Below are positions 432-19,697 of a stretch of 21,491 nucleotides of DNA, piece after piece. Source of the DNA: a virus. The stretch spans positions 1 to 21,491 of the IMG/VR virus record IMGVR_UViG_3300027730_000175; one strand, written 5' to 3'. Under the pieces are notes generated by a model. The model searched no databases. It was not told the origin of the DNA and saw only the letters and a program-made list of their open reading frames with translations. Both the position numbers and the translations under genes were made by a program. The first letter of the stretch is position 1, and every line of letters begins with the position of its first letter.

Positions 432-3400
432 ATGGCAGAAAATAGAAATTTAACTATATTTCAAAGATTAGGGCAAATTTTAGGTCCTGATTCGGCAAAA
501 TTAAAACAAAGTCAACCGCAACCACAACGTTACAATATGGGTAACGATGTATTGCTTAAAACAGACAGCAAGGCTGACTTTGAAAGAGCTAAACTACAAA
601 CACAACAAAACAAATATTTGTCTCAAATGTGGAAAAAGGTTGAAAGCGGCCTTTTTCAACAATCAATAAACTATGAAACAACTCGTATTGGTTCGTATTC
701 TGATTTTGAAGCAATGGAATTTTACCCAATAATTGCAGCTGCTTTGGATATCATGGCAGAAGAGTCAACGACTCTTAGTGATAAAGGTAAAGTACTTAAT
801 GTTTATTCAGATAGCAGTCGTGTTAAAGGTATCTTAGAAGATTTGTTTTTCAACAGATTAGATATTCACACATCTTTACCAATGTGGACTAGAAATACAC
901 CTATCAGAGAAAACAGTGTTATACCATTATTAGATGGTACTGAGGTAACTATTAAAGAACTTTCTAATAGAGTTAAATCTGGTGAAGAAATATGGTCATA
1001 CGCTATACAAGATGGTACCAAAGCAATTGTACCAAGTAAAATAATATGGTGTGACCTTACTAGAAAAGATTCTGAATTATATCGTGTTACTCTTGATGAT
1101 GGTACGCACATTGACACAACCCCAGACCACGAATATATGCTTAGAGACGGTTCATTCAAAAGAGCTGATGAATTAACCAAAGGTCAGTCATTGATGCCTT
1201 TTTATACTAGAAAAAGTGAAAAGAAAAAAGATTGTATCGTAGGCTATGAAAAAATTTATAACCCTAACACAACTAAATATAGATTTACACATTCTTTAGT
1301 TGCACATGAATGTGTTAGAGATTCAAATTATGAAACTTCGGTTGGATGTCAATTTGATACACATCATGCTGATTTTAATAAATTAAATAATCACCCTAGT
1401 AATTTAGTTAGATTAACCCATTCTGACCATTTTAAATTACATGTTGACCATTTTGATAAAATATTAGGTTCGCCAGAAGTTATCAAAAAACGTATGGAAG
1501 GTATCGATAAATATTTACGTTCAGATGAAAGAAGAGAACGTTTAAGTGTTGAAATGTCTGGTATCTATCCTAAATATTTTGAAGCATATAATAATTCTGA
1601 TTTACATACAGAACATAATGAGATTCGTTCAAAAGGTATGTTATCAAATTGGAAAAATAGAGAATTTATAGAACAAACCAAAAAAGGTATGACTATAGAA
1701 ATTACTGATACTTGTTTTGACTATATTTCAAATATAATAAAAAATAACGAAAACTATGTTGGTGTTAATAAATTATCTGAATTGCTTAAAAATGATTCTG
1801 AATTTATTAATTTATTTAAAGAAGGTTATTCATTAAGAAAAGACATAGCAAAATCTATTAACCCAACTACTTTAACTAAAGTATTATTTAGAAAAACAAA
1901 CCAAAATTATTTTGATTTTGTGTTGTCAATTAAACCAAGTTTGGTGATTGACAAGTCATATATAAAAGCTAAAGCAATCTATCTAGGAAAAACCAAAGAA
2001 AAGACCTTATTAAATCATAAAGTTGTTTCTATTGTTAAATTAAATGAAACATCCGATGTTTATTGTTTGGAAGCTGTTGGTCCTAACGGTGAGCATGATA
2101 GACATAATTTCCCAGTCTTAGGTAAAGATGTAAACGATTTATACTCAAGGACTTCTGGTGTATTTTTGTCCAACTGTAAATATGGTGACAACTTTGTGTT
2201 TTTGAATATTGATGACGTGCATGGTGTTACTGGCGCTAAACAAATGCCAAACTATGAAATGGAAAGAAGAGAAAGTGGTTTATTTGATATGATTACTGGT
2301 AGGGAAACACCAAATGCAAATGTAGCAGTTGCAGACAAAGTTAAATTTTACTGGAGAGGCCGTGATGTTGAGTTTAATTCATGGCAAATTGCTCACTTTA
2401 GATTAACTGGTGATGACAGACGTTTACCATATGGTACTTCAATTTTGGAAAAGGCTAGACGTATTTGGAAACAGCTTATCTTATCTGAAGATTCTATGTT
2501 GGTTTATCGTGTAACTCGTGCGCCAGAAAGACGTGTTTATAAAATATACGTTGGTAATATCGATGATGCTGATGTACCAGCATACGTAAATGAAATTGCT
2601 GATAGATTTAAGAGAATTCCAATTACTGACCCACAAACTGGCCAAATGGACCTTAGATATAATCAATTATCTAACGACCAAGACTTCTTTATTCCAGTTC
2701 GTTCTGAAGATGCACCAAATCCTATTGACACACTTCCAGGTGCTAGCAACTTAGACCAAATTGCTGATATTGAATATTTGAGAAATAATTTATTTACAGC
2801 TTTGCGTGTACCAAAACCATTTTTAGGTTTTGATGAAGCAACTGGTGAAGGTAAAAACCTTGCTTTGCAAGACATTCGTTTTTCTAGAACCATAAACAGA
2901 ATTCAGCAATCAATGCTTCAAGAGCTTAATAAGATTGCGATTATTCATTTGTATTTGTTAGGTTTTGATGAGGACTTTGATAACTTTACACTTACACTTA
3001 ACAATCCATCTACTCAAGCTGAGATGCTTAAAATTGAACACACTCAATCTAAAGTAACACTTTATAAAGATGCTGTGTCTGATGCTGGTAATGGATTTGC
3101 AGCTATGTCAATGACTAGAGCTAAACGAGATATATTAGGAATGTCTGATGACGAAATCAAAAAAGATTTGCTTGAACAAAGACTTGAAAAAGCAGCTGCT
3201 GCTGAATTGGCTAATTCTTCTAACGTAATCAAACATACTGGTATGTTTGATATAGTTGACAGAGTATATGGTGACATAAAATCAGCACTTAAAGGTGATG
3301 GAGAAGGCGGAGAAGCCGCTAGTGGGGAAAAAGGTGCTACAACCACAAGTGGTGGTGGTGGTGGTGGATTAGGCGGTTCATTTGGTGGTGGAGGCGTAGG

Positions 3401-3788
3401 TGGTGAAGACCTAGATTTTGGTGGTGACGAAGAAGGTGAAGGTGAAGCTGCTACTGAAGCTGGTGCTGAAGCTGAAGCTGGTGCTGAGATAGGTGGTGCT
3501 GAAGAAGATGCTACTGAGGCTGGCGCTGAAGAGGCTGCACCAACTGAAGTAACAGAATCAGTTAAAAAAATTGACAAGCTATTGAAAGAACAAAAAAGAT
3601 TATTGACCAAGAAATTAGATGATAGAACCAAAAAATATAAAGGTAGATTTGTTGACGCTTTGTTAGACTCTATCATACCAACAAAAAAAGAGATTAACGA
3701 GAGAGTTAAAATTTACGATAAAAACGTAAAAATAAACAAAGATGTTGATGATATGATAAACGGCATTGATAAAATGTTGGGTGAGTAG
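432..3788 (+). CDS. gp20: T4-like portal vertex protein (gp20) interrupted by an in-frame HNH intein
   Basis: The portal is the dodecameric ring through which DNA is packaged and to which the neck and tail attach. The 1118-aa precursor has three parts. The N-extein, residues 1-156, includes the typical gp20 stretch with ESGLFQ and a Tyr-Pro-Ile helix region. The intein is residues 157-581. The C-extein, 582-1118, opens CKYGDNFVFLNID and contains the portal core (RAPERRVYKIYVGN; PKPFLGFDEATGEGKNL). Removing 425 intein residues leaves 693 aa, longer than T4 gp20 (524 aa). The excess is mainly a Gly/Glu/Ala-rich stretch at about 955-1040, followed by a basic helical tail. The position before the core, protease, scaffold and capsid genes matches T4 order. 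Splicing must occur for a working portal. Family call is firm; the role of the C-terminal extension is unknown. Confidence 0.93.
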   Translation: MAENRNLTIFQRLGQILGPDSAKLKQSQPQPQRYNMGNDVLLKTDSKADFERAKLQTQQNKYLSQMWKKVESGLFQQSINYETTRIGSYSDFEAMEFYPIIAAALDIMAEESTTLSDKGKVLNVYSDSSRVKGILEDLFFNRLDIHTSLPMWTRNTPIRENSVIPLLDGTEVTIKELSNRVKSGEEIWSYAIQDGTKAIVPSKIIWCDLTRKDSELYRVTLDDGTHIDTTPDHEYMLRDGSFKRADELTKGQSLMPFYTRKSEKKKDCIVGYEKIYNPNTTKYRFTHSLVAHECVRDSNYETSVGCQFDTHHADFNKLNNHPSNLVRLTHSDHFKLHVDHFDKILGSPEVIKKRMEGIDKYLRSDERRERLSVEMSGIYPKYFEAYNNSDLHTEHNEIRSKGMLSNWKNREFIEQTKKGMTIEITDTCFDYISNIIKNNENYVGVNKLSELLKNDSEFINLFKEGYSLRKDIAKSINPTTLTKVLFRKTNQNYFDFVLSIKPSLVIDKSYIKAKAIYLGKTKEKTLLNHKVVSIVKLNETSDVYCLEAVGPNGEHDRHNFPVLGKDVNDLYSRTSGVFLSNCKYGDNFVFLNIDDVHGVTGAKQMPNYEMERRESGLFDMITGRETPNANVAVADKVKFYWRGRDVEFNSWQIAHFRLTGDDRRLPYGTSILEKARRIWKQLILSEDSMLVYRVTRAPERRVYKIYVGNIDDADVPAYVNEIADRFKRIPITDPQTGQMDLRYNQLSNDQDFFIPVRSEDAPNPIDTLPGASNLDQIADIEYLRNNLFTALRVPKPFLGFDEATGEGKNLALQDIRFSRTINRIQQSMLQELNKIAIIHLYLLGFDEDFDNFTLTLNNPSTQAEMLKIEHTQSKVTLYKDAVSDAGNGFAAMSMTRAKRDILGMSDDEIKKDLLEQRLEKAAAAELANSSNVIKHTGMFDIVDRVYGDIKSALKGDGEGGEAASGEKGATTTSGGGGGGLGGSFGGGGVGGEDLDFGGDEEGEGEAATEAGAEAEAGAEIGGAEEDATEAGAEEAAPTEVTESVKKIDKLLKEQKRLLTKKLDDRTKKYKGRFVDALLDSIIPTKKEINERVKIYDKNVKINKDVDDMINGIDKMLGE
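900..2174 (+). mobile_element. Intein with HNH homing endonuclease domain inside the portal gene
   Basis: Residues 157-581 of the precursor (425 aa) separate portal sequence LPMWTRNT from CKYGDNFV. Block A aligns as PIRENSVIPLLDG, so residue 1 is Pro rather than Cys or Ser. Block B carries TPDH (230-233). Block F reads VYCLEAV followed by HNF (558-560), with Cys545 where Asp is usual. Block G is GVFLSN, ending in Asn581, with Ser not His as the penultimate residue and Cys582 as the first C-extein residue. Between the splicing blocks lies an HNH domain: THHADFNKLNN at 310-320, PSNL at 322-325 and DHFKLH at 332-337. The frame is open throughout, so the element looks intact. Boundaries are inferred from block alignment and extein continuity. 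Confidence 0.9.
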
Positions 3789-9784: not shown

Positions 9785-10522
9785 CTATCTAGAAACACTA
9801 GTATTCATTCTAAAAACATACAATCTTTCTGGCAACTGATAAAATTTATAATTCGCAGCAGCTGCACGTTTCCATAAATCCCAATCTTCCATACCAATGA
9901 CGTGATTATAACCACCTATTTCATCTAAAGCTTTTTTCTTAATCATAAATGTACCATGAGCTAAAAAATTTGATTGAAAGATATTTTGTTTTATTACTTC
10001 ATCAGTTTCATATGCGCCTAAGCCCCATGATTGTATCATAAAATTATTATTGTTTAGTAACAATGTTTCTGTTGCTAAAAAATCAACATCATTATTTCTA
10101 AAATAATTTATTTGTTTCTCTAATTTTTCTGGTAGATAATAGTCATCACAATCTAAATAGGCTACTAACTCTGTGTCAATTAAAGACAAACCATGATTTT
10201 TTGCAAAGGCTAAACCTTGTTTATTGGGTCTTTCAACAATTTCTAAATTCAGTTTATAACTATTGTTTCTTACCATAGTAATAGTATTTGGCCAACACCC
10301 ATCTAACATCAACAAAACTTTAAAATCTTTGTACGTTTGCATCTCTAAGGATTGTAAAGCTTGATGTAAAAAATAATCATAGGTACCGTTAAAACTGTGA
10401 ACACACATCAAAACCGTGAGTGTTGGGTACTCATTTGTTCTGTTAATATACCCTCTCACTTTAGCGCCAAGCTCCGTGTCGTTTGAATACCGCTTCGTCA
10501 TTTTTAATATTTCATTACACAT
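9785..10522 (-). CDS. Family 2 glycosyltransferase (GT-A fold), 245 aa
   Basis: Transfers a sugar from a nucleotide-sugar donor; donor and acceptor are not evident. The N-terminal nucleotide-binding strand is LTVLMCVHSFNGTYDYFLHQAL (from about residue 35). The metal-binding motif is YLDCDDYYLP (D124, D126, D127). The acceptor-side motif is GMEDWDLWKR (210-219), typical of GT2. There is no membrane segment, so it acts in the cytoplasm on phage or host molecules. The start at 10522 fits a promoter ending 17 nt upstream; Met8 is an alternative. It has its own host-type promoter and a terminator shared with the capsid gene, so it can be expressed independently of late genes. GT2 membership is firm; substrate unknown. 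Confidence 0.88.
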   Translation of the reverse strand: MCNEILKMTKRYSNDTELGAKVRGYINRTNEYPTLTVLMCVHSFNGTYDYFLHQALQSLEMQTYKDFKVLLMLDGCWPNTITMVRNNSYKLNLEIVERPNKQGLAFAKNHGLSLIDTELVAYLDCDDYYLPEKLEKQINYFRNNDVDFLATETLLLNNNNFMIQSWGLGAYETDEVIKQNIFQSNFLAHGTFMIKKKALDEIGGYNHVIGMEDWDLWKRAAAANYKFYQLPERLYVFRMNTSVSR

Positions 10523-17212: not shown

Positions 17213-17869
17213 TTAATTGTTATATTTATTCAAATTTCCTTCATAAACAACACCATTTATCTCCCTTGTTGTAGCCCATAATGGTTGTAAGTTAGATAAA
17301 CAATTAACTATCTTAATAGGGGTGTTTTTATCAAAAGATGACACTGGTTTAATGTGGTCTATATGCCATTGACCGTAATTATCCCAAGACATACCTTTAG
17401 TAAATAGTGATTCTAAATGTTGTTTAAGTTCTAAAGCTGAGTAACCTAACAAATCAATTGTTTTACCTTCTTTAGATTTACCCAGTCTTTTTAATGTGTT
17501 TTTTAAAAACAATCTCCATCTTAATGTGTGTGAATTTTTGTTATAGTTATAACGATATTTTTTCCTTTCATCAGTTTTTTCTAAATCACGATAATATTGG
17601 ATGTTTTCATCATAATATTCTCGTTTCTTTTTTTTAACCTCTGGTTTAGTACTATAATTCTTTAAATACTCTTTATTTTTTTCACTGTTCGCTAATCTAT
17701 ACTCTATATTATATTCAGTTATTTTAACTAAATTAGTTTCTTGATATTTAATCATGTATTTTCTAGTACATGATTTACATGTATTCCCAAAACCATCTTT
17801 AGAAGTTTTACGTTTTGTAAATTCATTAAGTGTTTTAACCAAATTACATTTATTACATGTTTTTTCCAT
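17213..17869 (-). CDS. Free-standing HNH endonuclease with N-terminal zinc finger, 218 aa
   Basis: Probable homing endonuclease of the kind scattered between genes in T4-like phages. The ATG at 17869 puts the zinc finger at once: C5-x2-C8 (CNKC) and C31-x2-C34 (CKSC). A very basic helical linker (about 35-135) follows. The HNH core is GQWHIDHIKPVSSF (166-179, with H169 and D171-H172) and NLQPLWATTREING (193-206), where the last motif residue is not His, as in several variants. A GTG further up at 17884 is possible but less likely. It sits between two intact small genes of the late operon, which supports insertion as a mobile gene. Unlike the intein's HNH domain, it has a zinc finger and a different core, so the two are independent. 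Confidence 0.87.
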   Translation of the reverse strand: MEKTCNKCNLVKTLNEFTKRKTSKDGFGNTCKSCTRKYMIKYQETNLVKITEYNIEYRLANSEKNKEYLKNYSTKPEVKKKKREYYDENIQYYRDLEKTDERKKYRYNYNKNSHTLRWRLFLKNTLKRLGKSKEGKTIDLLGYSALELKQHLESLFTKGMSWDNYGQWHIDHIKPVSSFDKNTPIKIVNCLSNLQPLWATTREINGVVYEGNLNKYNN

Positions 17870-17872
17870 ATC

Positions 17873-17880
17873 TATAAATA
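17873..17880 (-). promoter_or_regulatory. TATTTATA element directly before the HNH gene
   Basis: Minus-strand TATTTATA lies only 3 nt before the ATG at 17869. If it is a -10 element, transcription would begin at or after the start codon, so the gene would be leaderless or read from upstream. Alternatively it is a chance copy in AT-rich DNA. Confidence 0.25.
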
Positions 17881-17896
17881 TCACCGATTTAATTAT

Positions 17897-18174: not shown

Positions 18175-18900
18175 CTACAACCCAGTTTGTTTTAAAAAGT
18201 CATAAAGTTGTTTATAGCGCTTCATTGCCAATCTAATGTCTTTCGTTGACAAATTGGTGTAATTCCTCATGGTTTCTAAAACAGAGTTTTTGTTATATTT
18301 GGAACCACCTTCCATAGCTTGAAATGCTGTTTCCCAATTTTCTAATATATCAATCAAAGCATAACCAACTTTTTTCTCGTTATCAGTTAGTTTCTTTTTT
18401 GCTGGTTGGTTTTCATCATTTAACTCTTCTTTTATACTATTTGTTATTTTACCTATGAAATCTTCCATAGAAAATGTTTCAGCATCTATTACGTAAGTTA
18501 AATCTGACCTTTCCTCCAAATCATCATACATATCTTCATATGAAGCGGTCTGTTTGATGTGTTTCTCGTCTTTGATTAAAAGACCTAGAATGTAGTTTTT
18601 ACTAATGGTTCCAAAATATGAATAAGCTTTTTTTCCTCTTCCACTTTCGAACTTATGTACTTTTGTCATTAAAAACGAAATGGTGTCACTATGTAAATCT
18701 TCAAATGTTTCACCTTTTCTATATAATTTGTACCTTTTAATTATCGACTCAATCATTTTATCGAGTGGCCCTCTAAGCCACTCGTTAAAAATTTGATTCC
18801 TTTCTTCTTCGTCTGTTGATTCTAAAAATTTAATTACTGCTTCTTCTTCATTTGGACCAAAATACATTTCATCTTTTCTTTTGCGTCCTCTTGCCACCAT
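18175..18900 (-). CDS. gp55: Late-transcription sigma factor (T4 gp55-like), 241 aa
   Basis: T4 gp55 replaces the host sigma factor on RNA polymerase and recognises late promoters that have only a -10 element. Residues of about 45-110 match sigma-70 region 2: DKMIESIIKRYKLYRKGETF, EDLHSDTISFLMTKVHKF (67-84) and GKKAYSYFGTISKNYILG (89-106). The basic N terminus (ARGRKRKDEMYFG) and an acidic middle (about 110-170) follow the gp55 pattern. The C-terminal 60 residues may be a degenerate region 4. T4 gp55 is 185 aa, so this one is longer. The ATG overlaps the stop of the upstream glycosyltransferase gene (TAATG). No late element precedes this operon within view, as expected for an early or middle gene. 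Confidence 0.83.
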   Translation of the reverse strand: MVARGRKRKDEMYFGPNEEEAVIKFLESTDEEERNQIFNEWLRGPLDKMIESIIKRYKLYRKGETFEDLHSDTISFLMTKVHKFESGRGKKAYSYFGTISKNYILGLLIKDEKHIKQTASYEDMYDDLEERSDLTYVIDAETFSMEDFIGKITNSIKEELNDENQPAKKKLTDNEKKVGYALIDILENWETAFQAMEGGSKYNKNSVLETMRNYTNLSTKDIRLAMKRYKQLYDFLKQTGL

Positions 18901-19697
18901 TAGACAGTTTGTTCTTGGTACGTTATGCTTCTATCTTTTGTAAAATAGTACTCTTTTTTAGCTTGAGCTAACCACCACTTGGCTTCTACTGGTGTCATAT
19001 AATCTTTATAAGACGAGAATAAAGAATCTGGTCTCTGATTCATGTGTTTATAACCAAATCTAGGGATAACCATAACTTTGATGGCTTTAAAAGTCATACG
19101 AAGTAGGAATTCATAGATGAAAGTTAGTTTGATACTTGCTTTGAAACCACCAAAGTCTTCGTAAATTGATTTCTTCATAACAATACCATCAATATTAAAG
19201 TTTTGATAAGCCAACAATGCGTTATTGTCTAAGACACCTAGTTCATCAGAAAAACTTTGGGCCCATACAGCTTCGTTTGTCAAACCAATAAATTGATTGT
19301 TTGAATCAACATCAATTACAATTGGCATAAAGATTTCAACTTCTGGATGTGCTTCACGATATTTTAAAACGTTTTTAAACCAAATTTTAGCGTATTCATC
19401 ATCCATCTCTAAGAAGCTAATCCATTCAGATTTTGCAACACTCACACCATAATTTGTTTGTGAAGCAAAGTCTGTTTGACCTTCATTTTCAGCAATTGTA
19501 ACTGATGATTTATAATCACCAAAATCAAAGGCTTTTACATATGTGGCAGCATCACTACCTTTTGGAACAACGATAACCAATTCATCTGGCCTTACTAGTT
19601 GTTCCTTTACACTTTGTACTGCATTAGTAAATAATTTTTTTGTATCATCGTTCAACTTGTGAACGGGTAAAATAACGCTTATGTTGTTTTTTTCCAT
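18900..19697 (-). CDS. Family 2 glycosyltransferase-like protein (GT-A fold), 265 aa
   Basis: The N terminus NNISVILPVHKLNDDTKKLF is the GT2 nucleotide-binding strand and helix. QTDFASQTNYGVSVAKSEW leads to FLEMDDEYAK, the DxD-equivalent site (D99, D100). NIDGIVMKKSIYEDFGGF (about 168-185) is the usual acceptor-side strand with Gly-Gly-Phe. The final GT2 [ED]-D-x-[LF] stretch is less clear; IYEFLLRMTF sits in its place. It is soluble with no membrane anchor. It starts 7 nt after the GT-B gene's stop and is translationally coupled to gp55 through TAATG. Substrate unknown. Confidence 0.82.
   Translation of the reverse strand: MEKNNISVILPVHKLNDDTKKLFTNAVQSVKEQLVRPDELVIVVPKGSDAATYVKAFDFGDYKSSVTIAENEGQTDFASQTNYGVSVAKSEWISFLEMDDEYAKIWFKNVLKYREAHPEVEIFMPIVIDVDSNNQFIGLTNEAVWAQSFSDELGVLDNNALLAYQNFNIDGIVMKKSIYEDFGGFKASIKLTFIYEFLLRMTFKAIKVMVIPRFGYKHMNQRPDSLFSSYKDYMTPVEAKWWLAQAKKEYYFTKDRSITYQEQTV

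Follow-up and report, generated by a model that had tools for sequence, protein, structure and literature searches.

The window, a stretch of 21,491 bases that makes up the whole record of an uncultivated virus, carries on its forward strand an open reading frame for a T4-like portal (gp20) precursor of 1118 aa with one intein inside (432-3788; Pfam PF07230, Portal_T4, 4.3e-68; PHROG 213, portal, 2.9e-55). The N-extein comprises portal residues 1-156 (432-899, +) and ends in LPMWTRNT. The C-extein, the remainder of the portal (2175-3788, +), begins with CKYGDNF and has a Portal_T4 match at residues 643-912. A prohead protease gene and the gp23 major capsid gene lie 3′ of the portal ORF. On the reverse strand, a free-standing endonuclease VII/HNH-like gene (17213-17884; PHROG 1035, 1.1e-19) is a possible further mobile element, and a gene with a Sigma-70 region 2 match (18175-18900; 1.1e-5) perhaps encodes a late sigma factor resembling gp55. 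Two genes for family 2 glycosyltransferases, also on the reverse strand (9785-10522 and 18900-19697), are found amid the structural genes.

The portal intein and its boundaries

Between the two exteins we found an in-frame insert at a conserved extein site (900-2174, +), an intein of 425 aa that runs from Pro1 to Asn425 (portal residues 157-581). It shows splicing-domain homology (Pfam PF14890, Intein_splicing, 2.2e-16; TIGR01445), has relatives in IMG/VR, and ends in Asn followed by a residue of the Cys/Ser/Thr set. An AlphaFold2 model of it had a mean pLDDT of 86, with solved HINT-type inteins among the best fold matches. A sequence-only reading had taken the insert for an intein, and this was confirmed both by these matches and by homologous portals without the insert, which give the exact junctions. 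Such intein-free portals run straight on from RNL or RNM into CKYGD (WIRNL/CKYGD in Microcystis phage Mel-JY01 and WIRNM/CKYGD in Flavobacterium phage immuto). Because they fix the junction, Thr156 is the last N-extein residue and Pro157 (codon cct, 900-902, +) is intein residue 1; relatives at the same site have T, L, M, V or I as their last N-extein residue. A start at Thr156 was ruled out, since the intein-free portals retain one residue between RN and CKYGD, and with the junction set in this way no other start is left that would begin the intein with Cys, Ser or Thr. Thus the earlier proposal that residue 1 is Pro157, with no N-terminal nucleophile, was borne out, and the residues it had named at F:4, B:12, G:5 and the penultimate position were all correct.

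The splicing blocks were located as follows on the forward strand. Block B reads TTPDHEY (1116-1136), with Thr at B:7, His233 at B:10 (1128-1130) and Tyr235 at B:12 (1134-1136), the position of the class 3 Trp. An HNH homing-endonuclease insert with approximate limits 1212-2015 (HNH core about 1362-1430) matches PHROG HNH families, for example at 6.7e-8. Block F carries Cys at F:4 (codon tgt, 2064-2066), which is portal Cys545 and intein Cys389 and the proposed first nucleophile. The intein C-terminus (2166-2174) consists of Leu579 at G:5, Ser580 at G:6 and Asn581 at G:7, and the +1 residue is Cys582 (2175-2177). Near the N-terminus a further cysteine, intein Cys51 (1050-1052), stands in the motif WC(D/G).

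A family of portal inteins with proline at residue 1

Relatives were collected by an IMG/VR scan with the window intein, in which 71 loci were fetched, and by two patterns that are blind to residue 1 and F:4. The pattern on the block F DRHNF motif, applied to DNA in IMG/VR, returned Cys at F:4 in 98 of 98 distinct stretches. The pattern on an N-domain motif returned Pro1 or Cys1 inteins only, and F:4 was Cys wherever block F was readable. Among 87 complete distinct inteins, a census resting on exact motif patterns that members without both motifs would escape, 82 have Pro1, 5 have Cys1 and all 87 have Cys at F:4; about 90 relatives have the Pro1/CysF:4-type layout. The Pro1 codons are CCA in 35, CCT in 33, CCG in 8 and CCC in 6. 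With Pro1 in 82/87 inteins and in all four proline codons, and Cys at F:4 in every one, the layout is not due to chance, and the use of all four codons indicates that the Pro residue itself is maintained. The sequence-only reading had suggested checking whether Pro1 and the block F Cys co-occur; their co-occurrence is essentially absolute, barring the few relatives with Cys1 and CysF:4.

Other positions are strongly conserved as well. His at B:10 and Asn at G:7 are invariant (87/87 each), and Cys51 is a second family-invariant cysteine, present in 54/54 Pro1 and 3/3 Cys1 rows of the family, in 1/25 class 1 portal rows and in 1/5 class 1 phage rows. More variation was seen at B:7, which is Ala in 27/87, and at the +1 residue, which is Cys in 72, Ser in 12 and Thr in 3. 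Its three portal insertion sites follow residues 156, about 321 and about 357 of the spliced portal, and the family includes natural mini relatives without the endonuclease; in forms of 159-236 aa the HNH region is mostly or wholly missing. Each member that was read lies in a portal gene, with no other extein seen. Isolated phages yielded no close relatives, their best matches being diverged; those that were read begin with Cys1 and have an identity of about 26-31%. In cellular genomes (GTDB set) there was a single match, a contig binned to Ca. Wolfebacteria (L212, NVTD01000053.1) in which two CysF:4 inteins interrupt a T4-like portal gene; the contig is probably phage DNA in that bin.

The members at site 156 with both Cys1 and CysF:4 are L139, L145, L161 (with near copies L175 and L206), L239 and L248. 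Sequencing error is an unlikely source of Cys1, which recurs in several contigs from separate metagenomes (L139 and L233, L145, L161/L175/L206, L239, L248). In trees L139, L145 and L161 fall within the family and the Cys1 rows nest among Pro1 rows; an AU test did not reject Pro1 as one clade (p 0.263). These members may represent either intermediates or reversions. More generally, there are known class 1 inteins that have Cys at F:4, and these are reported to be polyphyletic (PMC3196547). A Cys1 intein with CysF:4 was also observed in Aphanizomenon phage vB_AphaS-CL131, in a gene annotated as dCTP deaminase (L127; MG209611.1 68,324-69,991). As to selection, dN/dS in the splicing domain against the closest relatives was mostly 0.05-0.09, with one C-terminal comparison at 0.28, and in the endonuclease region it was about 0.10-0.18. 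The low splicing-domain values point to strong purifying selection on that domain and, together with Pro1 in four codons, indicate that the intein is under selection.

The splicing route

Class 1 inteins start with Cys, Ser or Thr. In the window intein residue 1 is Pro, and the class 1 route is therefore excluded. Two class 3 features are present, a residue 1 without a nucleophile and Cys at F:4, and two are replaced, Trp B:12 by Tyr235 and Thr G:5 by Leu579. Class 2 features are also found, namely the residue 1 without a nucleophile, Cys+1 and Ser at G:6; the class 2 Asp at F:4 is Cys in all family members.

These features and the sequence relationships described below led us to favour, at a probability of roughly 0.7, an intein that is functional and mobile (HNH), splices in a class 3-like manner and most likely acquired its layout in a line of HNH class 1 inteins, independently of WCT class 3. 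By analogy with class 3 precedents, Cys545 (F:4) would attack the Thr156-Pro157 bond, with His233 (B:10) assisting, and a branched thioester would form at Cys545 in block F. The acyl group would then pass to Cys582 (+1) to give the usual block G branch, Asn581 would cyclise despite the lack of a penultimate His, and the 693-aa portal would result from an S-N shift.

The family resembles the WCT class 3 inteins (Msm DnaB-1, Mch DnaB1, MP-Be DnaB, mycobacteriophage TerL) in its non-nucleophilic residue 1, Cys F:4, HisB:10 and terminal Asn. It differs from them in that Trp B:12 is absent from the window intein and found in only 4/87 members (Tyr or Phe in 74/87), Thr G:5 is likewise absent and occurs in 1/87, and the penultimate residue is His in 0/87 (Ser in 62/87). 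The family further departs from them in its mostly Cys+1 residue, its HNH rather than mostly LAGLIDADG endonuclease, and its low profile similarity. Pro1 is not unprecedented, since Pro also seems to be the first residue of a canonical WCT class 3 intein, that of Mycobacterium phage Violet TerL, its junction being inferred from alignment. The missing WCT Trp and Thr count against the class 3-like route. This is not fatal to it, because AceL NrdHF, which has Met at B:12 and neither of the C-terminal catalytic His, was shown by experiment to splice by the class 3 route and tolerated a change of its G:5 Thr to Ala, at a rate tenfold slower (PMC7891396). AceL NrdHF is thus like the window intein in having no Trp at B:12 and no penultimate His, but it keeps Thr G:5, has Ala1 and Ser+1, and is encoded by a split gene (PMC7891396). 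The class 3 intein Bvi IcmO shares Cys+1 with the window intein, and in it Cys+1 cannot substitute for CysF:4; it differs in its full WCT set, its mini-intein form and its plasmid gene (PMC5222942). Searches of the open-access literature turned up no description of portal inteins with Pro1 and CysF:4.

Also counting against the class 3-like route is that Ser G:6 and Cys+1 occur as class 2 features. In a class 2-like route Cys582 (+1) would attack the Thr156-Pro157 bond directly, without a block F branch, and CysF:4 would merely assist. The published class 2 KlbA inteins have Ala1, Ser G:6 and Cys+1 (PMC4031507), so that the window intein fits them in these positions, its residue 1 being without a nucleophile. 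Class 2 nevertheless needs Asp F:4 and Thr B:7 (PMC4031507), whereas the present family invariably has Cys at F:4 and, in nearly a third of its members, Ala at B:7; moreover, class 2 has been described with Cys+1 only, and Ser+1 or Thr+1 is found in 15/87 members. The class 3-like route is favoured over class 2 on the basis of these three positions, and we regard direct attack by Cys582 as improbable. Far less probable still is that the intein is a splicing-dead relic or performs cleavage only. That the residue 1 nucleophile and the penultimate His have both been lost would agree with a dead element, but the portal is an essential head protein, and a gene for such a protein would not be expected to bear a dead intein. 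The invariance of HisB:10, CysF:4 and AsnG:7 across 87 inteins, the low dN/dS in most splicing-domain comparisons and the persistence of mini-inteins after endonuclease loss all argue against a relic as well, and the conservation data make it very likely that the window intein splices.

Origin of the block F cysteine layout

The sequence-only reading had posed a choice between a variant class 3-like mechanism and a block F Cys that evolved separately, and the evidence favours both at once: the nucleophiles are laid out as in class 3 without the WCT Trp and Thr, and by sequence the intein groups with class 1 HNH inteins. Its nearest relatives by sequence outside the family are the HNH class 1 inteins at sites 346 and 383 of the same gene family (for example L050, L053 and L051). 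They differ from it in having Cys1, Thr or Asp at F:4, and Ala at the Cys51 position where aligned, while those of site 346 share with it a block F loop of similar length. With hhalign, the family scored 253 against class 1 site 346, 249 against site 383 and 41 against class 3, and the family profile gave about 98-127 bits to the class 1 inteins of sites 346/383 and at most 18 bits to canonical class 3. In a PDB sequence search the nearest entry was class 1 NrdJ-1, and no class 3 entry appeared up to E=10. When long branches were left out of the tree, the Pro1/Cys1 family and the site 346/383 class 1 inteins formed one group (support 100/93). Canonical class 3 formed a group of its own (100/95; 100/99 with long branches left out).

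Class 3 inteins have been reported to be monophyletic and of phage origin (PMC3196547), and the family could instead be a highly diverged branch of that clade that lost Trp and Thr, with the same mechanism possible. The identical nucleophile layout fits such descent, class 3 inteins with changed WCT residues are known, and a tree that unites the family and canonical class 3 was not rejected by the AU test (p 0.097; p 0.234 without long branches). Against it stand the profile score to class 3, 41 as compared with about 250 to the class 1 inteins of sites 346/383, the separate and supported class 3 group, the HNH endonuclease, whereas 82.5% of class 3 inteins have the LAGLIDADG type, and the occurrence of Cys1 members in the family. 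We consider descent from the known class 3 clade unlikely, though less so than the class 2-like route. Similarity gives good support, short of proof, for an origin of the layout from HNH class 1 inteins apart from the WCT class 3 clade. We put at somewhat better than even the chance that class 3-type chemistry itself had a second origin, from HNH class 1 inteins in T4-like portal genes and without the WCT Trp and Thr.

Inteins at other sites of the same portal genes begin with Cys1 or Ser1 and have Asp (18), Thr (6) or Asn (1) at F:4, with Cys in none. Since these co-resident inteins differ, the loss of the residue 1 nucleophile and the gain of CysF:4 track the intein family and not the host gene. 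The family therefore bears on how the first nucleophile moved from residue 1 to block F, and three states are found among close natural relatives: Cys1 with Asp or Thr at F:4, Cys1 with CysF:4, and Pro1 with CysF:4. A WCT graft onto the class 1 intein gp41-1 failed, and it was proposed that class 3 had a separate, protease-like origin and that its direct evolution from class 1 is unlikely (PMC7664689). If the chemistry is confirmed, the family would be a natural counter-case to that view (PMC7664689). In addition, the natural minis of 159-175 aa and the tolerance of Cys, Ser or Thr at +1 may serve protein engineering.

More broadly, the T4-like portal genes of uncultivated phages in IMG/VR are an intein hotspot with at least eight insertion sites. 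The class 1 inteins at site 346 (L032, L041, L050, L058, L060, L064 and L067) have Cys1, Ser+1 and a penultimate residue that is not His but mostly Lys; alignment places Thr at their F:4 (DTGTITIDG), and the combination is unusual. Up to four inteins were identified in a single portal ORF of 1917 aa (L058, 4542-10292), and another intein-rich portal ORF lies at 2994-8852 of L067. The portal ORF of L148 is 2688 aa in length, with its inteins only partly counted.
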